Shown here in pieces: positions 8,053 to 22,523 of a stretch of DNA of 64,000 nt; position 1 is the stretch's first letter; each line of letters starts with the position of its first letter. The DNA comes from Flavobacterium sp. CBA20B-1 (GTDB lineage: Bacteria > Bacteroidota > Bacteroidia > Flavobacteriales > Flavobacteriaceae). The stretch lies in contig NZ_CP092370.1 in the NCBI RefSeq assembly GCF_028473145.1, positions 2,480,001 to 2,544,000 of the forward strand, read 5' to 3'. The notes under the pieces are model-generated. The model made no database searches. It was not told the origin of the DNA and saw nothing but the letters and a program-made list of their open reading frames with translations. Position numbers and translations under genes: made by a program.

Positions 8053-8700
8053 TTAAATCAACCGATTTTTCTTCGCCATTTCCACCGCTTCCATTTTAGA
8101 ATGAACCTGCAATTTCTGGTAGATGTTTTCGGTGTGCCTTCTTACTGTGGCCGGCGAAATGAATAAATTTTCGGCAATGGCTGTGTAAGGCAATCCTTTG
8201 GAAAGCTGCTCCAATACTTCGGTTTCGCGTGCAGTCAGCGTAATCTCCTCTTGATTTTCGGGTAGCGTAATTAGTGGATTTCGTAGCAACTTCAAAGTCT
8301 TCATTGCAATGGACGGCGTCATTACCGCACCGCCTTCCAAAGTTTGCACAATGGCATCGTAGAGTTCTTTTGGTGGTGTTTCTTTTAGCAAATAACCATC
8401 GGCTCCGGCTTGTATGGCATTGAAAATATTTTCGTCATCGTCAAAAACCGTCAGCATAATGATTTTGATCTGAGGATATTTTTGTTTGACCAAGGCTGTA
8501 GTTTCAATACCGTTTTTACGAGGCATTTCGATATCCATCAGAATGAGGTCGGTGCGTTTATCGGTCTGCAATTTTTCCATACATTGCACGCCGTCATTTG
8601 CAGTGAAGGAAAGTTGTATATCTTCAAAAAGTGACAATTTATCTTTCACGCTTTTGATAAGAAAATTATTGTCTTCGATGATGGCAATTCTTGTCTTCAT
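8053..8700 (-). CDS. NarL/LuxR-family response regulator
   Basis: Receiver plus LuxR-type HTH, 216 residues from MKTRIAIIED. Glu9 and Asp10 form the acidic pocket, Asp56 (LILMDIEMP) is the phosphorylation site, and Thr (IIMLTVFDD) and Lys (LLKETPP) complete the switch set. The C-terminal HTH reads TARETEVLEQLSKG...ISPATVRRHTENIYQKL. An in-frame ATG at 8724 would overlap the kinase gene. I prefer 8700, which lies 7 bp after the kinase stop codon and gives the standard receiver N-terminus. It is translated together with the sensor kinase just upstream, its obvious partner. Probable targets are the two operons preceded by the shared 16-bp box. Confidence 0.93.
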   Translation of the reverse strand: MKTRIAIIEDNNFLIKSVKDKLSLFEDIQLSFTANDGVQCMEKLQTDKRTDLILMDIEMPRKNGIETTALVKQKYPQIKIIMLTVFDDDENIFNAIQAGADGYLLKETPPKELYDAIVQTLEGGAVMTPSIAMKTLKLLRNPLITLPENQEEITLTARETEVLEQLSKGLPYTAIAENLFISPATVRRHTENIYQKLQVHSKMEAVEMAKKNRLI

Positions 8701-8707
8701 ACATTTC

Positions 8708-10528
8708 TTAATTATTATGAACATTAAACCACACCTTCGTTCCTTTCCCCATTTCCGATTGCAGTTGCAATTCGCTGTTTAATTCCAAAGCTCTTTTTCG
8801 CATATTCAGTAATCCATTTCCGGGTTCAATTTCACTTTCTTCAAATCCTTTTCCGTCATCTTTTACCTGAAATTGGAGAACGGAATTTTCTTTGGAAATG
8901 AGGATTTGAATTTGGCTTGCTTCGGCATATTTAAACGCATTGTTGGTAGCTTCCTGAATAATCCTGAAAATATTCAAGCCTTGAATACCCGTAAAAACTT
9001 CTTCTTCCGACACATCGTCTGTTATCTGTAAGCTAACCTGGATATGGCTTTGCGACTGTTTCGCTTTTTCGATGAAATTAGCAATCCGGCTTTCTAAATC
9101 TTTGATGGTAATGCCTTGTTTGTTCATTGCCCAAATGGTATCCCGCAGTTCCTGAATGGTTTCTTTGGCAAAGGAACCGATGTTGCTCAACCTGTTGATG
9201 AGGTTTTCGTCTTTGTCCTTCACATAATATTTAATGGTGTCGATAGCCGAAATGATGAAGCTCAATTGCGCACCGATATTGTCGTGTAAGTCCCGAGAAA
9301 TCGACAAACGCTGCTCCTGCAATTTGTTTTGATTTTCGATTTTCTGAAGTGCCAATTTCATTTCGTTTTCTTGCTTTTGACGAAGGTTTTTCAGCACTTG
9401 TTGTTTATAAAACAAAAACCCCATCAAACCGATGATCACAACCAATGCAGCCAAACCAAAAATCCAGAAATTACGGTTGGTCAATTTTGCCTGTTGTTGC
9501 AGGATTTGATTTTCTTTTTCTGCCGTTTCGTATTTGGTAGAAATTTCTTCAACATCTTTCAGTTTTTGGGCCGTGTACAAACTATCATTCAGCACGTTAA
9601 ACGATTTTAAACTTTCAAAAGCTTTTTGATAATTGCCCAGCGCTTCGTAATTGCCAGTAATCTGCTCGTAATTGTATTTTTGAATGTCGGTAAATTTAAT
9701 TTTTCGGGCAACTGCATTACTTTGTTCAAAATATTCATTCGAAAGTTGATGCTGTTTGGTTTCTTTATAAAATTCGCCCAAAGCCGTATAGTTGAGCATT
9801 AAGGCAAAATCATCGTCCAGATTTTTACGAATTTCCAATGCTTGTTTCAGATAGCTTTCCGATTTTTTATAGTCTTTAATCAACAGTTGATTATAGCCTA
9901 AAAACTCCAAGGAATAGCCAATTCCCACGCTATCATTTCGCTGTTGCTGAATGCGCAATGACTTTTCGTAACGTCTATTGGCTTCCGCATAATCTTTAAA
10001 ATCATCCCTAAAAACAGAACCGCTTTCGTTGTTGATGCGGGCAATGCCTTCCAAATTATTTTCATCTTCGTACAATTTCAAAGCTTTATTGTAAAATTCC
10101 AACGCTCTTTTAGGTTGTTTTAATTTGCGATACATTCTCGCCATATCATCGTAGAGTAAGCCCAGTTTCTCACTATTTCCAGATTTTTCAAGCAAATTGA
10201 GCGCTTCATAATAATAAACCGAAGCACTGTCCACCTTACCTTTTCTGGCCATCGCCAAACCGATGTACCGCAAAAAATCACCCTGATTCACTTTGTCGTT
10301 TTCGGCTTTTGCCAAATCCAAACCCCATCTCGAAAGCTGAATGGTCGCATCAAAATCTTTTTGGTAAATCTTTTTCAGATGATCCTGCAACACCGAAATT
10401 TTCTTGGGATACGCTTTTTCCTGTGCCACAATTTGCTGAATGCTGTCAACCGTTTTTTGGGTTTGGGCGAATGTTTTATTCAATGAGAAAATAAAAAAGC
10501 ATAATATTAAAAGTAGAATTTGTTTCAT
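8708..10528 (-). CDS. Sensor histidine kinase with extracytoplasmic TPR domain (HisKA_3)
   Basis: 606 residues. Signal peptide (1-21, ending TFAQ), a periplasmic array of TPR helices (about 45-320), a coiled segment, one membrane segment (353-375), a cytoplasmic coiled coil, then the HisKA_3 box SRDLHDNIGAQLS with His415 as phosphorylation site. The HATPase domain carries IIQEATNNAFKYA (N box) and VKDDGKGF (G1), and ends near GTKVWFNV. The TPR array outside the membrane suggests it senses a protein or peptide partner rather than a small ion. It is followed by its response regulator with a 7-bp gap. It lies 79 bp after the gene at 10608, so it may belong to the same long transcript. Confidence 0.93.
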   Translation of the reverse strand: MKQILLLILCFFIFSLNKTFAQTQKTVDSIQQIVAQEKAYPKKISVLQDHLKKIYQKDFDATIQLSRWGLDLAKAENDKVNQGDFLRYIGLAMARKGKVDSASVYYYEALNLLEKSGNSEKLGLLYDDMARMYRKLKQPKRALEFYNKALKLYEDENNLEGIARINNESGSVFRDDFKDYAEANRRYEKSLRIQQQRNDSVGIGYSLEFLGYNQLLIKDYKKSESYLKQALEIRKNLDDDFALMLNYTALGEFYKETKQHQLSNEYFEQSNAVARKIKFTDIQKYNYEQITGNYEALGNYQKAFESLKSFNVLNDSLYTAQKLKDVEEISTKYETAEKENQILQQQAKLTNRNFWIFGLAALVVIIGLMGFLFYKQQVLKNLRQKQENEMKLALQKIENQNKLQEQRLSISRDLHDNIGAQLSFIISAIDTIKYYVKDKDENLINRLSNIGSFAKETIQELRDTIWAMNKQGITIKDLESRIANFIEKAKQSQSHIQVSLQITDDVSEEEVFTGIQGLNIFRIIQEATNNAFKYAEASQIQILISKENSVLQFQVKDDGKGFEESEIEPGNGLLNMRKRALELNSELQLQSEMGKGTKVWFNVHNN

Positions 10529-10607: not shown

Positions 10608-10925
10608 TCAAGTAGAACTTTCTTCGGATTTGAAAATTTTCAGGATGGATTGCAAATAAATCGAAAGCGATTGCAGTATTTCTACTGAATTCGGCTGAAT
10701 GGAAGTCGGGTTTTCTAAGTGGGTAAAAAGTTCGTCCAGTTCTTGCCAACGTTGTTCTACCGATTGGTTCATCGCTTGTTGAAGCGGGTTTGGTTTTTTT
10801 TCTGTAAATTTTTCTGAACGACTTTCCAGCGTAAGCGCATAATCGTTTAAAACCTTTTTCAATAAAGGAATGAGCAACAATATCAACCCAATGATAACGA
10901 TAAAAAACAAAACCAATGCCACCAT
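10608..10925 (-). CDS. Small single-pass membrane protein, unknown
   Basis: 105 residues. One strong membrane helix at residues 2-22 (VALVLFFIVIIGLILLLIPL) is followed by a polar amphipathic region with a likely coiled segment (AMNQSVEQRWQELDELFTHLE) and a second amphipathic helix near the end. I do not recognise the family. It starts 1 bp after the stop codon of the upstream gene, which makes translational coupling with that membrane-anchored protein likely. Confidence 0.75.
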   Translation of the reverse strand: MVALVLFFIVIIGLILLLIPLLKKVLNDYALTLESRSEKFTEKKPNPLQQAMNQSVEQRWQELDELFTHLENPTSIQPNSVEILQSLSIYLQSILKIFKSEESST

Positions 10926-10926
10926 T

Positions 10927-11988
10927 TTATTGTTCTTTTTGCTTTTTTATTTTCCGCCATTTAACAAATCCCCAAATTAAAACGCCTACAAGCAATACTA
11001 CGATAAGAATGGGCGCCACAATCATAAAGATCGTCAGCAAACCTGGCAAAGCCCCGCCAATAGTGCTTTTTACTTCGTATGGATTGCCTAATTCTGCTTC
11101 GGTGTAAGTAAGTTCATCGAACGATATTCGGCTGAATTCATCAATGTTATTGAATAGTTTCTCTGACTGAGCGGTATGTTTTGCAAATTCGAAATTCTCT
11201 ATTTTTTCGTAATAAGATGCCACGAGATTATCTGCGGGTGTTGGCGAAAAGTTCGTTTTAGTTCCGGCGAATAAGTGATATTTTTCATTGAATTTAAATT
11301 TAAATCCACCCGACAAACCTTGTAGATGTTCCAGTGTTAATCCGTCTTTCAATTGCACATAAAAATTTCCTTTTTCGATGGGTTGCTGCCAAACGCTGCC
11401 GCTTTCTAAAAGATAGATAAACGCATTTCGGTTTTCCAAATTATAGCCTTTGCGCACCTGAGCATCGTTGGTATTTACGATGAAATAAACCTCTACTGTC
11501 TGAATTTCATTCGGTGCAAAAGCCATTTGCCAAACCATCCAATTGTCGCTGAACGGATTTACATTTCGGTCGCTGTGATTGAGTTCCGGATGATTTTCTT
11601 TGATTAAATCTAACCAATGTTCTTTGGCTTTGATTTTAAATTGACTTAAACTGTCGAGGGTAATTTGGTTGAGATCCGTTTCGCCTCCAGAGTAAATACC
11701 GTTTACCGGATAACCCATTTTAAATTGGAGGTTTTCATTGCTAATATTTTTAAAAATATAGCTTCCTTTCACAACCGCAAAACCTTTATAAAGCTGAATG
11801 TAAATGCGTTCTTGTTGCATCTGCACTTTCTTAAAACTCAGACTATCTTCGGGATACAACATTGTAAAAACCGTTCCACCGGCGTTCCAAATGCCCGGTT
11901 GTGCAGCATTGGCAAAAGTTTTCTGTGCCGAAAAAATGCTGATAAAAAGGAGTAATAAGTTGAGGTATTTTTGTAAAATATTTTTCAT
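10927..11988 (-). CDS. Exported protein with C-terminal membrane anchor, unknown
   Basis: 353 residues. Signal peptide (ending KTFANA), a large beta-rich extracytoplasmic part (about 28-305) and a C-terminal helix LLTIFMIVAPILIVVLLVGV followed by a basic tail (KWRKIKKQKEQ). Topology is therefore type I, with the bulk outside the cytoplasmic membrane. The opening GGTVFTMLYPEDSLSF...VQMQQERIYIQLY and the FKMGYPVNG motif recall DUF4424-like proteins, but I am not sure. It is the sixth gene of the operon starting at 16988 and is coupled to the small membrane protein that follows. Confidence 0.8.
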   Translation of the reverse strand: MKNILQKYLNLLLLFISIFSAQKTFANAAQPGIWNAGGTVFTMLYPEDSLSFKKVQMQQERIYIQLYKGFAVVKGSYIFKNISNENLQFKMGYPVNGIYSGGETDLNQITLDSLSQFKIKAKEHWLDLIKENHPELNHSDRNVNPFSDNWMVWQMAFAPNEIQTVEVYFIVNTNDAQVRKGYNLENRNAFIYLLESGSVWQQPIEKGNFYVQLKDGLTLEHLQGLSGGFKFKFNEKYHLFAGTKTNFSPTPADNLVASYYEKIENFEFAKHTAQSEKLFNNIDEFSRISFDELTYTEAELGNPYEVKSTIGGALPGLLTIFMIVAPILIVVLLVGVLIWGFVKWRKIKKQKEQ

Positions 11989-11999
11989 ATCAATGGGAA

Positions 12000-13019
12000 T
12001 TAGGGAAGTTGAGATTTTTCTAACAAGGCTTCAAAAATGTGTAGCTTTTTATGCTGAAAATCGGTATTTCCCGTGACCGTTCCGTCGGCATAAGTGATTT
12101 GAAAAAAGCCAATTCCTGCAATCTTTTTGGATTTTATATCCACTTCTGCTTCGGCAATGATGTTTTTATGTTCGTCATGGAGAAATACCAACATTCGATA
12201 AGGTTTCAATTCTTCAGGATTTTTGGCATACGCCTGCAAAGTCTGTTCAGAATATCCTTGCAAATCAAAAGGTAAATTGTCTTTTGGCGCTTCGGCATCA
12301 AAACGCTGAATGCCTTTCAATAACTTGTTTTGAACGATGCTGTCTTCGATGAGTTTAAATTTGATTTCGATTGCAATCTCATCCATCGCATCTTTCAGAT
12401 ATGCCGTTGCGTAGAAATAACTTTGCGGTGCTACAAAAGACAAAATTTCACAGTCTTCGAGATAAAAATAATTGGTAATAATATCGGTTTCGCCCGGAAC
12501 TTTTTGGCGGTGGATTTCTTTGTATAAATTCCCATTCTGGCTGTAATGTCTTTCTGTGCTGGATTTTACGCCATCAATTTCGGCATTTATAAAATTTAAT
12601 TGATTGTTTTGGTATTGAAAGTCGATATAACTTTTGGCACCATCTTTAAATCGAATTTTTTCTTTGGTTATGCGGTTTTCTTTGTCATATTCGTAGGTAT
12701 AGGTTCGGTTCAGATAGGGATTGCTGTGTTCCCAAATTTCCTGTTGCAGACGACCTTTTTTGTAAACTGTTTTTGATTTCGCCCAGCTTTCGTCCAGAAA
12801 ACTTTGGTTTTCGTAGCTTTCCAGATTTCCATCAGCATTGAAAACACGGATTAGTTGTTCGACCTTTTCTACGTTTTCGCCGTCAAAGCTGTAATAGATT
12901 TGTTCTACTTTTTTCACCTGCTTTTTGTAGCCGTAATCCCGGTAGCTGATTTCGGGCAGGGATTGAGCGAAAGCATTTGTCAAAAAGAAAAGTAAACAGA
13001 CAAAAATTAGGTTTTTCAT
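12000..13019 (-). CDS. Exported YD-like repeat protein, paralogue of the gene at 14179
   Basis: 339 residues with a signal peptide (ending NAFAQ). The N-terminal half has YD-like beta units (IRVFNADGNLESYENQ, YTYEYDKENRITKEK, HYSQNGNLYKEIHRQ). The C-terminal domain ends ITYADGTVTGNTDFQHKKL, matching IKYSDGSQSGSTEFDLIFDQK of the gene at 14179. These two are full-length paralogues. No toxin, peptidase or self-cleavage motif is visible, so it is not a classical Rhs effector. It should be periplasmic or at the surface. Function unknown. Confidence 0.8.
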   Translation of the reverse strand: MKNLIFVCLLFFLTNAFAQSLPEISYRDYGYKKQVKKVEQIYYSFDGENVEKVEQLIRVFNADGNLESYENQSFLDESWAKSKTVYKKGRLQQEIWEHSNPYLNRTYTYEYDKENRITKEKIRFKDGAKSYIDFQYQNNQLNFINAEIDGVKSSTERHYSQNGNLYKEIHRQKVPGETDIITNYFYLEDCEILSFVAPQSYFYATAYLKDAMDEIAIEIKFKLIEDSIVQNKLLKGIQRFDAEAPKDNLPFDLQGYSEQTLQAYAKNPEELKPYRMLVFLHDEHKNIIAEAEVDIKSKKIAGIGFFQITYADGTVTGNTDFQHKKLHIFEALLEKSQLP

Positions 13020-13031
13020 TTGTGATAAGGT

Positions 13032-14159
13032 TTAGTTTATGGTATAAATTCCCGAGTTGATACTCTTTTCATAATCGGTCACGCCGTGTTTTTTATTTTC
13101 CGAACTATTGATGATATAGTATTTGTCATTTTCTTTTTCAATTTTCCATTTCGTTGGTTCGGTTGGTTTTCCGGCTTCAACAAAAACTGGATTTTTATCT
13201 GCAAAATGTACTAAAACTCCTTTTGCCTGACTATTGCTGATAGCGGCTTTGGACAAATCACTCTTAAACAAATAGATTGTATTATCCGATTTAACTTTTA
13301 CCACAGTATAATCTCCTTTGCTTATATACAATTCATATTGTGTCGAATGAAGCGCTTTTCCCTGGTAATTAAATGAAAAGGTTCCGTTTTTTTTATAGAT
13401 ATACAGATAAAACACCCCATTTCTATGCGTTAAAGGATAAAGTTTGTCAGTTGACATATCATTCAAAGAAAAAGCACTGTAATAATCTTTGGTATAGGTT
13501 GTGAAGAGTCGTAGGTTTTTGCCGTCCTCGATGATTTCGTAATGTTGTGGTTGGTTTATTCTACTATTATCCTGATAAAAATAGACAGTGGCATCGTTTA
13601 TCTTTCTAACATATAAACTTAAATTCTCATTATAAGACGCCGTTATCTTGTCTTTTGAATAATCCTTTTCTATGGTTTGACCCGAAGGATTTGAAACTGT
13701 AGTTGTAGTGGTGTTTTTTAATTGGTTATTATTAATATCTAAATAAACGAATACTGCTTTTACAAATAAATCGTTTATAGTGGTATAAAGATTTTCTGCC
13801 GTTTTTCTTACAGCTTCGTCTTTATGGTTTTTATCCATTTTCAATGCACCATATTTATCGTTCAGTACGATTTCATTTATTTTTATCTTTAAGCCATCAT
13901 CTTCAAATAAGTATTCTATTTTAGATTGTAAATTTTCATCTTTTCCTTTAATACTCCAGTTACCAACAAACTGATAATCTGATTTTTTCTCCATTTTCGT
14001 AAAAGTTATTTTTTCTCCGTTTGTGCGGTTGAAAAAGTCATTGGCTTTTTGCAAAGCCGTTTCTTTGGTGTATTTGCCATTGTAAGTACGGGTTTCTGTG
14101 GTTTGACCCAATACGCAAGTACCTACTATTAAAAACAATAATGTGATGATCGCTTTCAT
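13032..14159 (-). CDS. Exported protein, DUF4468-like N-terminal domain
   Basis: 375 residues with a signal peptide (ending CVLGQ). Residues 30-115 (KETALQKANDFFNRT, then a lysine-rich strand pattern and YLFEDDGLKIKINEIVLND) look like the DUF4468 TBP-like fold common in Bacteroidota exported proteins; I place moderate weight on this. The remainder is beta-rich with repeated short strands ending in KWKIEKENDKYYIINSSENKKHG. It has no membrane helix beyond the signal. It is the fifth gene of a seven-gene operon of exported proteins, with 12- and 19-bp gaps to its neighbours. Confidence 0.78.
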   Translation of the reverse strand: MKAIITLLFLIVGTCVLGQTTETRTYNGKYTKETALQKANDFFNRTNGEKITFTKMEKKSDYQFVGNWSIKGKDENLQSKIEYLFEDDGLKIKINEIVLNDKYGALKMDKNHKDEAVRKTAENLYTTINDLFVKAVFVYLDINNNQLKNTTTTTVSNPSGQTIEKDYSKDKITASYNENLSLYVRKINDATVYFYQDNSRINQPQHYEIIEDGKNLRLFTTYTKDYYSAFSLNDMSTDKLYPLTHRNGVFYLYIYKKNGTFSFNYQGKALHSTQYELYISKGDYTVVKVKSDNTIYLFKSDLSKAAISNSQAKGVLVHFADKNPVFVEAGKPTEPTKWKIEKENDKYYIINSSENKKHGVTDYEKSINSGIYTIN

Positions 14160-14178
14160 TTTGTTTGTTTTAAAATCG

Positions 14179-15144
14179 TTATTTAATACGCTTCACTTTC
14201 TGGTCAAAAATCAAATCAAACTCTGTACTTCCGCTTTGGCTGCCATCGCTGTATTTGATTTCTCTGAAAACCATTCTTCGTTGAATACCAAATTCTTTGT
14301 CGATTTGTAATCTTTTCGTCCAGTCGCCGTTTTCATTTTTACTTTCAGCCGGAATGTCGAACACAATCATTGCACTCGATTTCCCACTCAAATCACCTAT
14401 GGTTTGCTGAAATTTTTTGGGATTTTCCTGTTTCATTTTTCGCAAGTTTAATACATAATTCAACGGATCATTTTCTGTAATTTCTATTGTAAAATCAATG
14501 CGACGTTCTTTGTCTTTCAACCAAATTTTATTTTGATTATCTTTTTGAAAAAAAGCCAACACATCATCACCATCATACACAAAAATGGTTTCCGTCACGG
14601 TTCCTTTGGCGCTCGTCTCTTTTTCTGTGACCGTATTTTTCAGGTGGTCGAACAAAGATTCTTTTTTGCTACCGTTTTGGTAGGTTCGTTGAATGGAAAG
14701 AACCATTCCGTTGTTATCATACTGAAAGGTGTCGGTAAAATTGGTATAAACGCCTGAAGCTGTCACTTTTTCTAAAATACCATTTGCATCGTAATGCAGT
14801 TTTTGCTTCGAATTAAAATTTGAAGCGGAAGCAACAGTATTGATGCTGTCCAGAACGCCGTTTGTATAAACATAATTATGAGCGGTTTCGCTGGCATATT
14901 TACCATAAATCCGCATATATTTTTGAATGATAAATCCTTCCTTATTAAACGAAATTACTTCCGCCATCACCGGTTCATATCCTAAACTATCGCTTTTGTA
15001 ATAAGCAATCTTAGCAAAATCGGGTTGCTTTTGAAAACCATACGATTGCCAATAGGTTTTGGGAGGTGAAAGATGTTCGGCTTCTTGTGCTTTTAAGCTG
15101 AAACCAATGATTATAAAAAATAAAGTTGCAAAAAATTTCATCAT
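14179..15144 (-). CDS. Exported YD-like repeat protein, paralogue of the gene at 12000
   Basis: 321 residues, signal peptide ending SLKAQ. YD-like units include VISFNKEGFIIQKYMR, KLHYDANGILEKVTAS and TFQYDNNGMVLSIQRTYQNG. The C-terminal domain with the closing IKYSDGSQSGSTEFDLIF matches the gene at 12000. The two copies have diverged widely outside the motifs, so the duplication is old. It sits 9 bp after the preceding gene. Function unknown. Confidence 0.8.
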   Translation of the reverse strand: MMKFFATLFFIIIGFSLKAQEAEHLSPPKTYWQSYGFQKQPDFAKIAYYKSDSLGYEPVMAEVISFNKEGFIIQKYMRIYGKYASETAHNYVYTNGVLDSINTVASASNFNSKQKLHYDANGILEKVTASGVYTNFTDTFQYDNNGMVLSIQRTYQNGSKKESLFDHLKNTVTEKETSAKGTVTETIFVYDGDDVLAFFQKDNQNKIWLKDKERRIDFTIEITENDPLNYVLNLRKMKQENPKKFQQTIGDLSGKSSAMIVFDIPAESKNENGDWTKRLQIDKEFGIQRRMVFREIKYSDGSQSGSTEFDLIFDQKVKRIK

Positions 15145-15153
15145 TTTAGATTT

Positions 15154-16056
15154 TTAGTTTCGGTATTCAATCGCTCTTTTGGTAATGGTGGAAAATTCCC
15201 ATTTCCCCTTTTTCATTTTGTAGTTTTTGCGTTCTATCCAGTTGCCTCTCGCATCAAACTGATATTCAAAACGTTCTTTATCTTTACCGTCTTCCTGAAT
15301 TTTTTCCAAATCTTTGTAGTCGAATGTATCTCCCGCTACATCCACTTTTCGGGATTTATAATGATATTTGGTAAGGCTGCTAATACCCAAGTTCGTCACT
15401 GTTTTTTCTAATTTATTTCCGGTTTGATCTAATTGCAAACGATCGGTTTGATCTAAAACACCATTCAGATATGTTTTTTTTATGCGAAGTGTGGTAGCAT
15501 CGGCAGCCGATTGGTACCAAAATTCTGTTTTCTTAGCTTCTGAATTTTCAGGTGTGAACACGGTTTCTTTGGTATAATCGTTATCATTTCCTTCGTATTT
15601 TACTTCAAAAACATCGGGTTGCGCAACATTTAATAAATAACGCGTTACTTTTATTTTTTCCACATCAAAAGAACCATAAGCGTATTGCCATTCTTCAATG
15701 GTTTTTAGCGTGTTGGGATTAATAATTTTTACCGATTTCAATTTTTTGGAATACGCATCGGCATACTGAAATTCAATATCAAAATCGGCATAACTGTTGT
15801 TGTAATTCACAAATTGATAATCGGTTAATTGATAAGTATTGTTCCAGCTTAAATAAATTTCTAAAATGGGGAATTCTTCGTTTTCGTCAATGGCAATTTC
15901 CTTGGTAGTTAGATTTTTTACTTGTGAAAAATCAATCAAATCCACGTGGTTTCTGAAATCCCATTCGGTTGGATAATAGGGAATAAAATCTTGGGCAGTT
16001 GCAAAGCTGGCAACCATACAAAGTAAAATGGCACTAATATTTTTTATTGTTTTCAT
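15154..16056 (-). CDS. Exported YD-like repeat protein, unknown
   Basis: 300 residues, signal peptide ending FATAQ. It shows alternating aromatic beta units (WQYAYGSFDVEKIKVTRYL, KYHYKSRKVDV) and the closing unit FEYQFDARGNWIERKNYK...ITKRAIEYRN, the usual form of the last repeat in Bacteroidota RHS-like exported proteins. Its ATG overlaps the stop of the preceding gene in the sequence ATGA, so translation is coupled. No catalytic motif seen. Confidence 0.8.
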   Translation of the reverse strand: MKTIKNISAILLCMVASFATAQDFIPYYPTEWDFRNHVDLIDFSQVKNLTTKEIAIDENEEFPILEIYLSWNNTYQLTDYQFVNYNNSYADFDIEFQYADAYSKKLKSVKIINPNTLKTIEEWQYAYGSFDVEKIKVTRYLLNVAQPDVFEVKYEGNDNDYTKETVFTPENSEAKKTEFWYQSAADATTLRIKKTYLNGVLDQTDRLQLDQTGNKLEKTVTNLGISSLTKYHYKSRKVDVAGDTFDYKDLEKIQEDGKDKERFEYQFDARGNWIERKNYKMKKGKWEFSTITKRAIEYRN

Positions 16057-16988
16057 CTTGATAATTTTAAATATTTTTGATACGTTTCCTGAAAGAAAAC
16101 TTTTAGCTGCTCATCGCTTGGCGCGTTGTATATTTTCTCAGGTGTTTCAAGGGTTCGAATGGTAGCAATTAAATTCTTTTTTTTATTATTGGCAAGACTG
16201 TATTCAATTTGTGCCACCCATACATCGCCATCGTACAAATAAGTATAATGTTTTTGTCTTGATATTTTTTTACCAGAATTTTTCGCCTCGGTTATAAAAT
16301 CCACCACTTGTTTCAGGTCGCCATTTGGGTTATAGTAATACAATGTAAGCACCTTTACTTCCTCATCTTCTCCAGGCAAAACAATGGTTTCGCTCTTCGT
16401 TAATTTTCCGTTGCTATCGTTCACGTAGGTGATATCTGTCATCAATTTTTCGTCGAAATATTTTTTAAGGCGGTAACCTTCCTTTCCGTTATATTCTATT
16501 TGTTCGGTGCGTTTCCCGTGTACATTGTAAAACGATTTGCCTCGCAATTCGCCCGCTTCGTTGTAAAACAAAATCGTTTTGTCTGTTTCTTCTGTAGGAT
16601 AAGTTCTATAAAATGTGGTTTTGTAGTCCTGTTTTTCTGTACGGTAAGTGTTGATTTTGCGTTCCGTTCCCGCATTGGAATTTTGAAGGGTTTCTTTACT
16701 TTTCAAGTAATCGTTTTCGTATTGATAATTTACCGTTGTTTTTACCATCGAGGCAGTGTCTTCATATTGTAAACAGACGATTTTATCATTTTTAAAAGTA
16801 TAGACAGTATAACTTGGTCGTACAGAAAACTGTTGCTGCGGAATAGAAAAATCGGTATAACGAACAACTGCTTTCACCGTGTTTTTCGGTAAATCGAAAT
16901 TTTCTGGTGTAATGCTTTCTTGTGCCTTGGCTACGAAGCCGAAGATAAGAAGCAAAATTATTGCGGTATATGTAACTGTTGTATTCAT
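16053..16988 (-). CDS. Exported YD-like repeat protein, first gene of its operon
   Basis: 311 residues, signal peptide ending FVAKAQ. It has YD-like units (TILFYNEAGELRGKSFYNVH, TYVNDSNGKLTKSETIV, LYYYNPNGDLKQVVDF) and a C-terminal helix (DEQLKVFFQETYQKYLKLSR). It is preceded by 131 bp that contain the shared regulatory box and a promoter, and it starts a seven-gene set ending at 10608. Function unknown. Confidence 0.8.
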   Translation of the reverse strand: MNTTVTYTAIILLLIFGFVAKAQESITPENFDLPKNTVKAVVRYTDFSIPQQQFSVRPSYTVYTFKNDKIVCLQYEDTASMVKTTVNYQYENDYLKSKETLQNSNAGTERKINTYRTEKQDYKTTFYRTYPTEETDKTILFYNEAGELRGKSFYNVHGKRTEQIEYNGKEGYRLKKYFDEKLMTDITYVNDSNGKLTKSETIVLPGEDEEVKVLTLYYYNPNGDLKQVVDFITEAKNSGKKISRQKHYTYLYDGDVWVAQIEYSLANNKKKNLIATIRTLETPEKIYNAPSDEQLKVFFQETYQKYLKLSR

Positions 16989-17008: not shown

Positions 17009-17040
17009 GTAAAGTAAATACAATTGCAACGGTTGTTCAA
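17009..17040 (-). promoter_or_regulatory. Promoter of the 16988-10608 operon
   Basis: On the minus strand TTG (17038-17040) directly follows the shared box and is followed after 21 nt by TACTTTAC (17009-17016), an imperfect TAnnTTTG. A weak -7 next to an upstream box is what one expects of an activator-dependent promoter. The leader to the ATG at 16988 would be about 15 nt. Confidence 0.5.
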
Positions 17041-17054
17041 TAGGGCAAATGCAC
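17039..17054. promoter_or_regulatory. Shared 16-bp box, copy 1
   Basis: AATAGGGCAAATGCAC, identical at all 16 positions to 22267-22282 and followed in both by one variable base and ATTTTT. The core GGGCA-AA-TGCAC is an imperfect dyad, which fits a dimeric NarL/LuxR-type regulator. It abuts the -33 element of the operon promoter. Confidence 0.7.
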
Positions 17055-17119
17055 TATTTTTTCAGAATTTATTGCACTTTATATTTATCAGATTGTTGTT
17101 CTATTTTGAGATTTAAATT

Positions 17120-19030
17120 TTACCATATGGTATTTTTAAAATGATTTTTAGCTTCAAGATTCAATGCATCTACAATTAATGTTCTGCGTACCGTGGCAAA
17201 ATAGCGTAAAAATTTATCGGCAGCTTTAGGTTCTTCAAAAAACACCAATTCATCTACTATACCGGCATACACTTTGGTTTTGGCTTGTTCATTATCGCCG
17301 TATTCGTTTCGCGTTAATTCATCAATTAATTGAATGGTAAAGTTTAAATCTGATGAGGTTTCTGTACACGCTTTGAAAACCATCTGTGTTTTTATGGTCA
17401 TGTAATTTTCTTTTCCGTATAAATTTTGTTTATCCAAACCAGTAAGTGTATGAATTCCATGCTGAGGCAAATCAAACAAAATAGGTTTATAAACGGTTTC
17501 AGTATAAAGATGCTGTATCACACCAGTTCCTTTACAATAGGGGCATTTTTCGGTTTTGTATTGACCGGTAAAATAACCCACTTCTTTTGTTTTATAAACC
17601 GGTGACGAAGTGGAAGTTCTGTACACTTTGGTGTAGCTCCCAAAATTGGTTTCGTATCTCTTTGAAGAATGTTCGTAATAGGCAACATAAGTTTCATGTT
17701 TGGTGTCGTATATAGGTTTTTTTACTTCTTTCTCACATTTTTGATTTGTGCTGAACGAATTCTTTGTTCGATAATAAACCATTTCATTTTTACCGTCTAA
17801 GCATTGCCATTTCTTAATTTTATCCTCGGTATTAAAGTCGCTTCGAATTCTTAAAACGCCATTTTTTTTGTCCACTATGGCTACAAATTCTCTATCAACC
17901 GAAGGTAAATAAATATTGATTTCAGCTGGTAATTCGCTCAATTTTTGAGATTCTGGAAAGGGTGTTTTTCTGTTTTTTTCATACTTAGAATACAAAATGC
18001 CGGGATAATTTGTAGCAGACCAAAAGTCTGTATCTTTAGATTGATTTTGCGCATCTATGGTTCGACCTTGCAACAAGCTGTTTTGTTTGAAATAGCCAAA
18101 CATTGCCGAAACACTTTGCTCAGTAATTTGAATCTTGCGATTATTTCCCATTGTCACCGGGCGAAAGGTGTTGTTGATAGTAGCATAATATCCTAAACCA
18201 TTCAAAACGTTATTTTTAAAATGCCCCACAAACACCTGCACTTCGTCAGCTACTGCAACTTTAGAATTTTGGTTTAAATGCAGTCCGTAACCATTAAAGT
18301 TTGTGGCGTTTTTTGGTGTGATATTTACCATTAATAATTCGTTGATGAATTCATTGGCAACAGGGTTGTTTTTTTCTTTTAGATGCAGCCTTTTCTGGGG
18401 CAATTCTGCAATGATTTTAAAGTTCATATTGAAGGTGCGATGTAATGTTTCCACATCTGGCTTTTCCTCAATATTAGCTGGTATGGTCCAGTCAATGTTT
18501 CCATCAACTATCAATGCCCAAGCACATTTTTTATTTTTTGGATCTTCCATAAATAGTACCGAACCATTGCCAAATTCTTTTAAAGTGGGAAGCATAAATC
18601 CCGTAAAAATCAGTCCATCTTTAGTGTAATACGTTCCTACTTCTAAATAACCGATGTAAAAATCACCATAACCCACAGAAATATGCGAAGGTTTTGTTGA
18701 TAAAGGTGAAATAACTTTGGTAGAAAATCCCGAAGTGGAATAAGTACCATATGTGTCGTCTTTGTTTGTATAAAGGTTGAAATCAGATGTATAAATATCT
18801 TGTAACAAGTCGCCCTTTTTATCGTAAGTAACGGTTCGCGTTAAAGGGCCTTCTTTGGTTGTTACTTGTTTGAGATTGTTTGTTGCGACAAATTCTGGAA
18901 AAGTACGACTTTCCGTGAAATAGTTGTTTTTAATTAATCGGTATTGATTTTGAGCAAATGAATTTGAATCCCAAAGAATCAAAATAATTGGAATGCAAAA
19001 TCGAAATAAATAGGTGCGAAATGTGCTCAT
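17120..19030 (-). CDS. Large exported protein with a CxxCxGxG zinc-knuckle-like motif and MORN-like segments
   Basis: 636 residues with a signal sequence near the N-terminus (ending NSFAQ). It has MORN-like stretches (GDFYIGYLEVGTYYTKDGLI and GHFKNNVLNGLGYYATIN) and, near residue 500, the motif KCPYCKGTGVIQH, resembling one DnaJ-type CxxCxGxG zinc element; no second copy is present. The rest is beta-rich with a helical C-terminus. It is the last gene of the operon that starts at 22210. It is not a DnaJ protein. I do not recognise a family. Confidence 0.78.
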   Translation of the reverse strand: MSTFRTYLFRFCIPIILILWDSNSFAQNQYRLIKNNYFTESRTFPEFVATNNLKQVTTKEGPLTRTVTYDKKGDLLQDIYTSDFNLYTNKDDTYGTYSTSGFSTKVISPLSTKPSHISVGYGDFYIGYLEVGTYYTKDGLIFTGFMLPTLKEFGNGSVLFMEDPKNKKCAWALIVDGNIDWTIPANIEEKPDVETLHRTFNMNFKIIAELPQKRLHLKEKNNPVANEFINELLMVNITPKNATNFNGYGLHLNQNSKVAVADEVQVFVGHFKNNVLNGLGYYATINNTFRPVTMGNNRKIQITEQSVSAMFGYFKQNSLLQGRTIDAQNQSKDTDFWSATNYPGILYSKYEKNRKTPFPESQKLSELPAEINIYLPSVDREFVAIVDKKNGVLRIRSDFNTEDKIKKWQCLDGKNEMVYYRTKNSFSTNQKCEKEVKKPIYDTKHETYVAYYEHSSKRYETNFGSYTKVYRTSTSSPVYKTKEVGYFTGQYKTEKCPYCKGTGVIQHLYTETVYKPILFDLPQHGIHTLTGLDKQNLYGKENYMTIKTQMVFKACTETSSDLNFTIQLIDELTRNEYGDNEQAKTKVYAGIVDELVFFEEPKAADKFLRYFATVRRTLIVDALNLEAKNHFKNTIW

Positions 19031-19050
19031 GTTTACAGATTTTAGTGCTG

Positions 19051-20562
19051 TTAGTTCATTTTTCTAACCAATTGATCGTCTTTAAATTCGCCAATTTCCA
19101 AAGAACCTTGCCCGTTTTTTCTAAAATAACTGTTTCCTGATCCATTCAGTTTACCGTTTTTCCAATACCCTTTTTTGCTAAAGTTTCCTTGTCTTTCTAC
19201 GAGTAAACCAAAGTTTTCTGGCTTACTGTTTTTAAACGTTCCTAAATGAAATGTTTTATTTTGAATGTAATAGAAAATACCTTTACTAGGTTCGCTGTTG
19301 GTAAACTGCCCCATGAATTGATCGCCATTTGGAAATACAAATAATCCAATTCCGTTTTGGCAATCGCCTTTAATACAAGCTGTTTTATTTCCTGTAGGTT
19401 TTGCTTCAGTAAGTAATTTATTATCTTTAAACAAGCCCAGCTGCACGGTATTGGCTTTTTTATCCTGCAAAACTCCAAACCCACTAAAAACGCCTGCCTT
19501 AAATTCGCCGTGATAGGTTTTATTACCATCATCGTAATTAAGTATTCCCATACCAGTAATGGTATTGTTTAAAAATTCACCGTCGTAATTGGCTTTGGCG
19601 CTTGTAAAAGTAAAAAGACCAGGACCGTTCATTTTATTGTCTTTCCAAAATCCCTCGTATGTATCCCCATTTTGATAGTGGAAACTTCCCCAACCGTCTG
19701 TGCAGTTCCCCTGGCAATTACTATCTTGAATAACTAATCCAGCATAAAGTTTTTTGGCATCGGTTAACTGCAGATTTGCGATGGATATTCCCTTTGGAAA
19801 TGCCGCTCCGGTTTTTTGTCCATCGAAATACCAATAAGCAAATCGGTCATTGAGTAAATTGCCTTTAGCATCGGTTTTTATTTTTGTGAAATCAGATGTT
19901 TCACTTTCAAGACCTTGTTTATTATAATAGAAAGCTTGAGTGGTAGCAGCTTTACTAGGCTCTTTCGTGTTTTTAATAGTAACGCTTAGCTTTAGTATAT
20001 CTTTTTGCTGCTGATATGCAAAGTGAAGGTCATAAGCCATTTTTAAGGTACCCCAACTTCGGTCTTTCATATAAACAATTTTGCCAGCCTCATCATATTC
20101 AAACGTTTTGATGGTATCACCTTTATGCTTGGTAATGGCAGATAAAAGTCCTTTGTTATTATAAAGAAAAAGTTGCTTATGATCGTTACCATCCACATAA
20201 TTATTGTCGGAGGTTTGAGTTCCTATAAGCTTACCGTTTTTGTAATGAAATTTAACCAAGTATAAACGCACCTGATCGCCGTATTTTTTGTAAACATACA
20301 ACCCAGTAGGCATATTGTTGGCATCGTACACATATTCCGTCAGGTCTCCGTTTTCAGCTTCTTTTTCCAATAAACCATCTTTGTTAAATTGCTGTACTTT
20401 GTAACCATCGGAAACAAGTGCAACATTTCCTTGATAACCAAAATGATTAGTAGTATAGGCAAACGGTATGGGATTTCGTGGTTTTGTTGCCCAATCTTTT
20501 GTTTGTGCAAACCCATTGATAGCCATGAAAGAAACAAGTATTAGGGTAATAATTTTTTTCAT
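19051..20562 (-). CDS. Exported MORN-repeat protein
   Basis: 503 residues from the ATG at 20562 (MKKIITLILVSFMAINGFAQ, a clean signal peptide). An upstream in-frame ATG at 20595 would overlap the previous gene by 32 bp and put 11 residues before the signal peptide, so I reject it. The first half holds YD-like units (YVYDANNMPTGLYVYKKYG, TFEYDEAGKIVYMKD). The second half has at least five MORN repeats (GDTYEGFWKDNKMNGPGLF, YHGEFKAGVFSGFGVL, GYWKNGKLNGSG). Two CxGxC pairs precede repeats (CQGNCTDGWG and CIKGDCQNGIG). It links the YD-like and MORN families of this locus in one protein. Confidence 0.85.
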   Translation of the reverse strand: MKKIITLILVSFMAINGFAQTKDWATKPRNPIPFAYTTNHFGYQGNVALVSDGYKVQQFNKDGLLEKEAENGDLTEYVYDANNMPTGLYVYKKYGDQVRLYLVKFHYKNGKLIGTQTSDNNYVDGNDHKQLFLYNNKGLLSAITKHKGDTIKTFEYDEAGKIVYMKDRSWGTLKMAYDLHFAYQQQKDILKLSVTIKNTKEPSKAATTQAFYYNKQGLESETSDFTKIKTDAKGNLLNDRFAYWYFDGQKTGAAFPKGISIANLQLTDAKKLYAGLVIQDSNCQGNCTDGWGSFHYQNGDTYEGFWKDNKMNGPGLFTFTSAKANYDGEFLNNTITGMGILNYDDGNKTYHGEFKAGVFSGFGVLQDKKANTVQLGLFKDNKLLTEAKPTGNKTACIKGDCQNGIGLFVFPNGDQFMGQFTNSEPSKGIFYYIQNKTFHLGTFKNSKPENFGLLVERQGNFSKKGYWKNGKLNGSGNSYFRKNGQGSLEIGEFKDDQLVRKMN

Positions 20563-20563
20563 T

Positions 20564-21205
20564 TTAAGGAGCATTTTGTTTGTTAAACTTATCATTGGAA
20601 GCAGTTAGGTATTGCATTCCCATTTTCAGCAGCAGAAACGGAAGCACTATCAATGCAGAACCCCAACGATTTTCGGGCGTGAATATTTCGGGATAATTTC
20701 TCACCACAAAAAACATCACCACACCGCCAACAATAATCGAAATGTGTAAAACAATAGCATTGGGGCTGAAAGCACTTAGATAAATGGGTATGGGCTGTTT
20801 GGCTTTATGCAGCAAAATTCTTTCAACTAAAATAAAAATAAGGTTGCCATTGAAAAACCAATTCTGAAAAAACAAAACTTCCATATTGGTAAAGATGATT
20901 TCGTGATTGCCTGATCCGGCGATGAACCCGAAAAAAACCACAATAAACACCCAGTAAATTCCCATCAAAAACAAACTGCCGAATTCAAATCGTTCATTGT
21001 TTTCGCAAATTGCATTTTCATTTCGATTTCTGAAATAAAAATCTACTGCCAACTGTACCAAAGCATTCCACCAAAAGAAATAAATCAGGTAAAAAACGGT
21101 GGTTTGACCATTAAGCACAGACAGTAAAGTCAGGCTTAGAAAGATGAGAAAATCCCACTTTCTATAGTTTTTTATCTGATTACGAAAGGTAGCTTGCAAT
21201 GACAT
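20564..21205 (-). CDS. Polytopic membrane protein, unknown
   Basis: 213 residues with about five or six hydrophobic segments (for example FLIFLSLTLLSVLNG, FYLIYFFWWNALVQLAVDF, MGIYWVFIVVFFGFIAG, VLHISIIVGGVVMFFVV, ALIVLPFLLLKMGMQYL). No signal peptide or catalytic motif. It may belong to the DUF6498-like membrane families, but I cannot confirm this. Its stop codon lies 1 bp before the next gene, so translation is coupled to the MORN protein. It is the only polytopic protein of the operon and could be its membrane hub. Confidence 0.8.
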   Translation of the reverse strand: MSLQATFRNQIKNYRKWDFLIFLSLTLLSVLNGQTTVFYLIYFFWWNALVQLAVDFYFRNRNENAICENNERFEFGSLFLMGIYWVFIVVFFGFIAGSGNHEIIFTNMEVLFFQNWFFNGNLIFILVERILLHKAKQPIPIYLSAFSPNAIVLHISIIVGGVVMFFVVRNYPEIFTPENRWGSALIVLPFLLLKMGMQYLTASNDKFNKQNAP

Positions 21206-21241
21206 TATGAATAATTTTAACCTAAATTTAAGAAAATAGGT

Positions 21242-22210
21242 TTATTTATTATAATATTTGTTATAAAATTCATCTAAATGATGTTTTAGGAACATATCAA
21301 TCGCCATTTCAACTCCTTTTTCATATTTTTGAGCATCAGCCGGAATTATTGCAGCTTTGGCAGCCGATTTGTTTTTTGCCGAATACAATGTTCCAAAAGC
21401 CGTTTTTGTTCCCCAATTGTCGTAATCAGAAGCTACGTAATTGGTGATTTTTTCTTCCTTAATTACGCCGTCAATATCTAAATCTTTTTTCAGGACACCC
21501 TGATATTCTGCCAAAGGAGAACCTCCGATTTTATTACGACCAACTATGAAATGGGCAATTGTATTGTCTTCCGATAATACCAGATTTGTTTTGGCTACTA
21601 CATTGGCTCCGATACCACTTTTATTGGAAGCTCTGGTGTTTACAAATTCTACGTATAAATCTACACGAACCACAGCAGCATCATTCAGCTCTTTAGAAAG
21701 TTTTGTGGTATTTTCCGTCGAGCCTTTTTCTTTGTAGAAGAAACCTACGTTTTGCGGATGTACAGTAACAGCACCATCCACTTTAGAAGGCGTCATATTT
21801 AAGTTGGTACTGTACTGATACCCTTTATAGAAATCTGTGTTTTTTCCTTCTTCTGCTGCCATTACATTAAAGCCTTTTGATTTTAAGTCGGCAACAAACT
21901 GCGTATAAGCGTCATTCGTAATATTCTGGAGTGTTTCTTCTGAAATATCCAAACCAACCGCCAATGAGGCTTTTGCAGCACCCATCACGGCACCAAATAT
22001 GCCCGAACCGCCTTTCTTGGAAGCAGATTTCTCGCTATATACCTGATAATGCACAGCAAAATCAGCTATATACACATTTTTGTTATCTAATTTTGGTTTT
22101 TCCAGACTTGCAGGACCAGCTTTTCCCGGCTTAAAATCGCCTAAAGTTTGCGCATTAATGCTAGAAATCCCCATTAAAACCGCCATCGAAAGTAGTAATT
22201 TAGTTTTCAT
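21242..22210 (-). CDS. Exported protein of unknown family, operon head
   Basis: 322 residues, signal peptide ending SSINAQ. A Gly/Ala-rich segment (GGSGIFGAVMGAAKASLAVG) is followed by a domain with LQNITNDAYTQFVADLKSKGFNVM, typical of a small alpha/beta unit, and a C-terminal helical part (GVEMAIDMFLKHHLDEFYNKYY). A mid-protein stretch VYIADFAVHYQVYSE recalls proteins with lipoprotein-like TolB-N folds, but only weakly. It is the first gene of a four-gene operon and is preceded by the second copy of the shared box. Function unknown. Confidence 0.8.
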   Translation of the reverse strand: MKTKLLLSMAVLMGISSINAQTLGDFKPGKAGPASLEKPKLDNKNVYIADFAVHYQVYSEKSASKKGGSGIFGAVMGAAKASLAVGLDISEETLQNITNDAYTQFVADLKSKGFNVMAAEEGKNTDFYKGYQYSTNLNMTPSKVDGAVTVHPQNVGFFYKEKGSTENTTKLSKELNDAAVVRVDLYVEFVNTRASNKSGIGANVVAKTNLVLSEDNTIAHFIVGRNKIGGSPLAEYQGVLKKDLDIDGVIKEEKITNYVASDYDNWGTKTAFGTLYSAKNKSAAKAAIIPADAQKYEKGVEMAIDMFLKHHLDEFYNKYYNK

Positions 22211-22237
22211 TGCTGTTTATTTTAAATTGTTACTATG

Positions 22238-22268
22238 CAATATTATTTAAAACAGCATGGCAATAAAA
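22238..22268 (-). promoter_or_regulatory. Promoter of the 22210-17120 operon
   Basis: On the minus strand TTT (22266-22268) next to the shared box is followed after 20 nt by TAATATTG (22238-22245), one mismatch from TAnnTTTG. The geometry is the same as at 17009-17040. The leader to the ATG at 22210 would be about 22 nt. Confidence 0.5.
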
Positions 22269-22282
22269 TAGGGCAAATGCAC
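22267..22282. promoter_or_regulatory. Shared 16-bp box, copy 2
   Basis: AATAGGGCAAATGCAC, identical to 17039-17054, with the same position relative to the -33 element and the same ATTTTT one base further out. I found no third copy by eye in the window. Confidence 0.7.
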
Positions 22283-22523
22283 CATTTTTAAATAGCCATT
22301 CAAGGAACATTTATGAAGGATGAGTAAGGTGCATGAAAACCAACATATCCAGATTCACTTTTTTCTGTGTAAAGATTCTATAAACTGCGTAAGAATTCAT
22401 CATTGAATAGTGTATAATATATGTTTTAGTAACTTTTAATTGGAAAGATAATATAATCAGTTTAATACTAAACCTGCTTACAGATTGTATATTTTCGGTA
22501 ACACCGTGCTGTTTTTTAACTAA

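Follow-up and report, generated by a model that had tools for sequence, protein, structure and literature searches.

Probable operators of a NarL-type response regulator upstream of exported-protein genes in Flavobacterium sp. CBA20B-1

The half-site of NarL is TACYYMT, and another NarL-family regulator, DevR (DosR) of Mycobacterium, has a palindromic box of the GGG...CCC type. According to the accessible part of PMC7419079, one 7-2-7 site immediately 5' of -35 is enough for Escherichia coli NarL to activate yeaR-yoaG, and site II at ogt is centred at -44.5. In Porphyromonas gingivalis, a surface-protein gene is activated by FimR, which acts with FimS and binds directly to the mfa1 promoter; the available part of that article (PMC1974823) gives no FimR binding motif, and the words "motif" and "footprint" have 0 matches in it. 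According to PMC6847099, Flavobacterium promoters have a clear -7 and a poorly defined -33 element. Here, we analyzed a window of 64,000 nucleotides (nt) from Flavobacterium sp. CBA20B-1 (contig NZ_CP092370.1, positions 2,480,001 to 2,544,000), in which an identical box precedes two genes for exported proteins. The two boxes are very likely operators of the NarL-type response regulator encoded in the same cluster (8053-8724), lie in an activator position, and would switch on genes for exported proteins.

Like E. coli NarL as described in PMC7419079, the regulator combines Response_reg and GerE domains, and its putative operators consist of inverted 7-base half-sites with 2 bp between them and occur as single sites near -35. 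The locus differs from NarL in the half-site (TANGNCA here), in the sigma factor and promoter type, and in its genes, which encode exported proteins instead of nitrate respiration functions. PF00072 and PF00196 were both above cut-off, and the protein matched NarL (1a04) over its full length; by its predicted receiver and C-terminal GerE/LuxR helix-turn-helix, it is a member of the NarL/FixJ family. DevR is also among its solved relatives by sequence; the half-site, host and targets of DevR differ from those found here. The best NCBIfam model for the adjacent kinase is FimS, which links the locus to FimS/FimR. However, an equivalog assignment was rejected, because the score of 116.3 bits is far under the NF053520 cut-off of 600 bits, and fimbrial genes were not found in this gene train. 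The slot 3' of the operators appears to correspond to the TAnnTTTG -7 element of Flavobacterium sigma-A promoters. The accessible parts of the studies on these promoters (PMC9723704 and PMC6847099), in contrast, report sigma motifs and describe no such operator; in that of PMC9723704, "palindrom" and "luxr" have 0 matches. An operator of a NarL-type regulator in activator position is a known kind of element. Among the open-licence literature matches listed (titles and beginnings of abstracts), none describes the operator family reported below, its fixed geometry, or its terminator-operator variant.

The box, AATAGGGCAAATGCAC, lies at 17039-17054 and 22267-22282, each time with a single variable base (T, C) and then ATTTTT behind it, just as the original prediction had it. 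It is part of an 18-bp imperfect palindrome on the minus strand, at 17040-17057 (B1) and 22268-22285 (B2), which reads ATRGTGCA-TT-TGCCCTAT; its extent was set by the bases conserved in relatives. Operator B2, ATGGTGCATTTGCCCTAT, is located 57 nt 5' of the ATG of the first gene of the train (the head gene), and operator B1, ATAGTGCATTTGCCCTAT, 51 nt 5' of the ATG for an exported protein of 311 amino acids (aa). Each box contains one fitting half-site (TGCCCTA), and the other half is imperfect. A whole-genome search, proposed with the prediction, returned exact copies of the 13-mer AGGGCAAATGCAC at the two boxes only (3.04 Mb); one mismatch added 5 places, and the reversed-pattern control gave 0. 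Across 398 Flavobacterium genomes, the 13-mer was present in 26, including this one, and the reversed pattern, though no matched control, in 3. A repeated 16-mer by itself is weak evidence: the window contains 11 exact same-strand 16-mer repeats, compared to a mean of 3.55 in first-order Markov copies (for repeats with at least 7 G/C letters, 2 compared to 0.1). Real support comes from the comparison with relatives.

The head gene was found in 2 of the 40 genomes first searched (the own genome and a congener, G022) and in records named Flavobacterium ichthyis, Chryseobacterium echinoideorum, Pedobacter ureilyticus, F. profundi, and F. sp. NRK F7. Its box was kept in all 8 genomes in which the cluster regulator is at least 75% identical, a phylogenetic footprint that bears out the predicted conservation for B2. 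Six relatives each had one exact GKGCAWWTGCCCYAT, at the head gene (for Pedobacter, the matches include both strands of its site), and the own genome had two, at the boxes. In the eighth genome, G102 (regulator 76% identical), ATGGTGCATCTGCCCTAT precedes a head-gene homolog with 42% identity. For six divergent promoters, the mean pairwise identity was 0.91 in the operator and 0.24-0.51 in six of the eight flank blocks (upstream, 0.24, 0.33, and 0.44; downstream, 0.48, 0.51, 0.75 in the -7 slot, 0.64, and 0.41). The site in the Pedobacter record is the closest to a perfect palindrome. In relatives, the train bears a single box, at its head.

We then asked which sites surround homologs of the regulator, which were found in 102 of the 398 genomes at E <= 1e-65. 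Sixty homolog loci were fetched, the first 20 by E-value order and the others in approximately this order, with some passed over; among the last 20 are G074, G299, G386, and G366, picked for a palindrome already known in those genomes. The set is partly redundant, with two G297 loci carrying identical regulators and with G040 and G300 nearly identical. When half-sites flanking a WW centre were counted without bias, CGTCA (8 copies) and CGGCA (7 copies) had the highest z, with 0.2 copies expected for each; among 6-letter half-sites, TGAAAA had more copies (16 vs 1.03 expected), and the window's own half-sites were not prominent. The family motif, ATANGNCA-WW-TGNCNTAT, had 79 exact copies in 68 regulator loci (1.17 Mb), with 26, 27, and 23 in the three batches of 20 loci and 3 in a paralog locus of F. 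profundi. Sixty scrambled palindromes had a mean of 0.13 and a maximum of 3 copies in the same loci. In its general form, ATANGNCAWWTGNCNTAT, the motif had its 79 exact copies in 37 of the 68 loci.

Sites of this architecture thus cluster around regulator homologs: 20 control regions, 392 kb taken from the same genomes, contained 0 exact and 0 one-mismatch copies of the motif. At the level of whole genomes, 40 regulator-positive genomes held 81 places, spread over 28 of them, and 40 regulator-negative genomes held 7, while the reversed pattern had 2 places in each set. A strict palindrome, TARGGCAWWTGCCYTA, was present in 18 of the 398 genomes, and its reversed-pattern control in 4. Genes behind family sites in relatives encode DUF6252 lipoproteins, an OmpA-family protein, MORN proteins, head-gene homologs, TPR kinases, and the regulator itself. 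Distant copies exist as well; in three genomes, for example, one precedes a 158-aa exported protein and is in register. As separate observations, distant in-register operators precede long exported proteins in G196 (L179), where two stand in tandem, and in G331 (L183). The F. profundi paralog locus (L090) encodes a second regulator (67% identical) with three exact family operators of its own, one of them directly after the regulator's stop codon and with a T-run. At L191 and L194, ATATGACAWWTGTCATAT fits the motif letters without the register; judged by eye, the neighbours are a CRP/FNR-type regulator and a metal-transport ATPase, and this is probably an unrelated FNR-type site.

The distance between operator and -7 element is fixed. 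The -7 slot starts 22 nt past the operator for TAnnTTTG, or 26 nt for its TTTG. Read toward the regulator gene, 66 of 77 distinct flanks had TTTG starting at +26; read the other way, 1 had it. At 75 distinct exact sites, it was exact at +26 in 66 and had at most one mismatch in 74. With a loose frame, ATA-N12-TAT, 144 cases had the spacing 26, and each of the spacings 22-25 and 27-31 had 3-8. Among distal exact sites picked from the matches listed, 17 from regulator-positive genomes had TTTG at +26 (7), at +25 (4), or at neither (6), and 4 from regulator-negative genomes had 0 with TTTG at +26. In F. johnsoniae, the -7 letters span T-12 to G-5 in the available part of PMC6847099; with this numbering and inferred transcription starts, the operator centre would therefore lie near -43.5. 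The motif TANGNCA-WW-TGNCNTA has, on its letters, the NarL-type 7-2-7 layout of two inverted 7-base half-sites 2 bp apart, and its predicted position is beside the -35 region, as for activation from a single site.

Both window boxes hold the +26 register. The -7 candidates, near matches to TAnnTTTG, are TAATATTG for B2 (22238-22245, minus strand; register +22) and TTACTTTA for B1 (17010-17017, minus strand; register +22). At +26, the letters are ATTG for B2 and TTTA for B1, each with three of the four TTTG letters. The predicted -7 of TAnnTT type thus has candidates downstream, and its distance, which had been counted as 20-21 nt from a TTG/TTT against the box, is restated as given above. The TTG/TTT itself found no support as a promoter element. 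We rejected TTTG inside the box as a conserved -33 element, because the operator centre, TT in the window, is AA in F. profundi and NRK F7 and TC in G102. Because the flanks differ, we also rejected a recent duplication of the entire B2 promoter as the origin of B1.

The conservation at the head gene, the clustering, and the fixed spacing support the original prediction of an activator-type site with the neighbouring NarL-type regulator as its candidate binder. The adjacent TPR kinase presumably phosphorylates the regulator. A regulator dimer would then bind the inverted repeat (7-2-7 within the 18 bp), take the place of the poorly defined -33 element, and recruit sigma-A RNA polymerase to the TAnnTTTG-type -7. 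In this way, the exported-protein genes would be switched on, and the regulator may raise its own production, because kinase and regulator close the same gene train.

Several observations weigh against this model. The own genome has zero exact copies of the family motif, with 1 mismatch in B1 and 2 in B2 (Pedobacter, 1; G022, 3; G102, 3), and the 392-kb control contained 8 two-mismatch matches by chance; B2 therefore rests on conservation and register. The clade of the window has its own form, GKGCA-NN-TGCCC, and its link to the family consists, as far as the letters go, of position, register, half-site, and regulator kinship, not of an exact match. The motif was defined and counted on the same loci, although the downstream register played no part in its definition. 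An exact copy was missing from 31 of the 68 loci; with wider criteria, 63 of the 68 had a site, against 19 background matches on the reverse strand, and the rest had none. Furthermore, the -7 slot of B1 is weak, and the TAATATT of G102 is off register by one.

The regulator could bind the boxes and yet repress, or do both, the site blocking polymerase rather than recruiting it. Sequence does not prove the sign of regulation, and the site extends to about -35, a position at which polymerase could be contacted; the single rigid spacing to the -7 and the missing conserved -33 element suit an activator that touches polymerase, and we regard repression as unlikely. A different DNA-binding protein as the binder is improbable too. 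It would fit with six analyzed loci having two regulator homologs, and binding by the cluster's regulator is itself deduced from sequence; on the other hand, 15 of the 18 genomes with the strict palindrome are regulator-positive (base rate 102/398), a regulator homolog is found within 15 kb at 13 of the 25 places of this palindrome, and regulator and box stay together even in the records named Chryseobacterium and Pedobacter.

There is an appreciable, if minor, chance that B2 alone is functional and that B1 is a chance or decayed copy. Here the prediction fared less well, since the 311-aa gene behind B1 was found among relatives only in G022 and F. ichthyis, and neither has a box before it; the -7 slot of B1, TTACTTTA, points the same way. 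Against decay, B1 is closer to the family motif than B2, is in register at its short distance from the ATG, and sits in a gap of 131 nt, compared to 12 nt before the same gene in G022 and F. ichthyis. That the repeat as a whole is functionless chance is very hard to believe: although 16-mer repeats are not rare in the window, the conservation, the genome-wide rarity, and the register argue against it, and for B2 the conservation in all eight genomes contradicts it. We thus retain the two boxes as probable activator operators of the cluster's regulator.

All genes from 22210 to 8053 run in one direction, on the minus strand. The original prediction of exported-protein genes next to a two-component system holds, and its "two operons" are one unidirectional train that closes with kinase and regulator and may be cotranscribed. 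The train begins with the head gene (21242-22210), which encodes a 322-aa exported protein of no Pfam or NCBIfam family. It is followed by genes for a 213-aa protein, probably a membrane protein by eye (20564-21205), and, in a variable part of the train, for a 514-aa exported MORN-repeat protein (19051-20595) and a 636-aa exported protein (17120-19030). Behind B1 follow the gene of the 311-aa exported protein (16053-16988) and six further genes (300, 321, 375, 339, 353, and 105 aa; 10608-16056). Most train genes, including most of these six, start with signal-peptide-like stretches, as judged by eye. The TPR-type sensor histidine kinase (HisKA_3, HATPase_c) is encoded at 8708-10528. Family searches of most of the exported proteins gave nothing above cut-off except MORN and RHS-repeat, in the same protein.

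In relatives, the head gene, the 213-, 300-, 321-, 339-, 353-, and 105-aa genes, the kinase, and the regulator recur in this order, with variable exported genes between them and, in some records, other inserted genes. F. profundi and NRK F7 have a similar short gene at the position of the 105-aa gene, although no match to it was scored there. In F. ichthyis, a type II restriction-modification-like cassette (L095, 4853-10019) lies between the 105-aa gene and the kinase, and in Pedobacter a KilA-N gene (L093, 5305-5853) does; this gap therefore resembles a site of insertion. Many cluster proteins are 80-93% identical (regulator, 91%) in the records named C. echinoideorum and P. ureilyticus (L011 and L012). 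This suggests horizontal transfer between families, with misnaming or contamination as alternatives. The kinase of G022 (L040, 16460-18394) is 31% identical to the window kinase in its sensor half (106/341) and 92% identical in its membrane-plus-kinase half (238/259), and looks from this comparison as if its sensor half had been swapped.

Some sites in relatives form a second class. We collected 117 distinct sites, either with an exact operator or with at most one mismatch in both operator and TTTG. A run of at least 5 T followed 29 of the 51 sites with an RNA-pairable 7-bp stem (G-U allowed) and 3 of the 66 with a broken stem (Fisher p about 3e-10); for exact sites only, the numbers were 14/29 and 1/46. 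T-runs accompanied 7 of 22 stems with a G-U change, 0 of 12 with an A-C change, and 2 of 28 with other single mismatches. The one-sided p for G-U compared to A-C stems was 0.03; a transcript hairpin, unlike duplex DNA, tells the two apart. These p-values overstate independence, since the sites share descent. All 15 exact T-run sites stay in the promoter register when one mismatch is allowed. One T-run example folded with -10.1 kcal/mol. Sites with a pairing stem and a T-run therefore look, on these counts, like combined terminator-operators. Tentatively, the palindrome in these relatives may act as RNA in terminating the preceding unit intrinsically and as DNA in activating the next, so that the regulator could couple both. 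For the window, no terminator is claimed: the boxes (-4.7 and -6.1 kcal/mol) have a stem mismatch and no run of at least 5 T on the promoter strand, and no known RNA family was found in the window at gathering threshold.

We also compared the recognition helix with the operator core. With loci encoding two regulators dropped, a CA..TG core was found in 78 of 81 operators where the regulator has Ser or Ala before T-V/I-R in the helix and in 6 of 40 where it has Gly. Despite these striking counts, coevolution was not established, because a helix-free tree holds too few independent changes (4 of each trait, and 3 or 4 independent pairs) and in most of these pairs the operator does not differ. The window regulator and that of G102 share their own helix, RRHT (RKHI/V in the others), on a long supported branch, and the boxes of both show the GTGCA-NN-TGCCC form.

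Together, the base-level operator, the rigid -7 spacing, the adjacent candidate regulator, dozens of natural variants, and a self-contained cluster that is also present in records of other genera open the activation geometry of a Bacteroidota response regulator, and its operator specificity, to direct tests. They also provide a candidate for the regulation of a set of exported proteins that mostly lack annotation. If the dual-role reading is true, the family would split into pure operators, as in the window, and terminator-operators.

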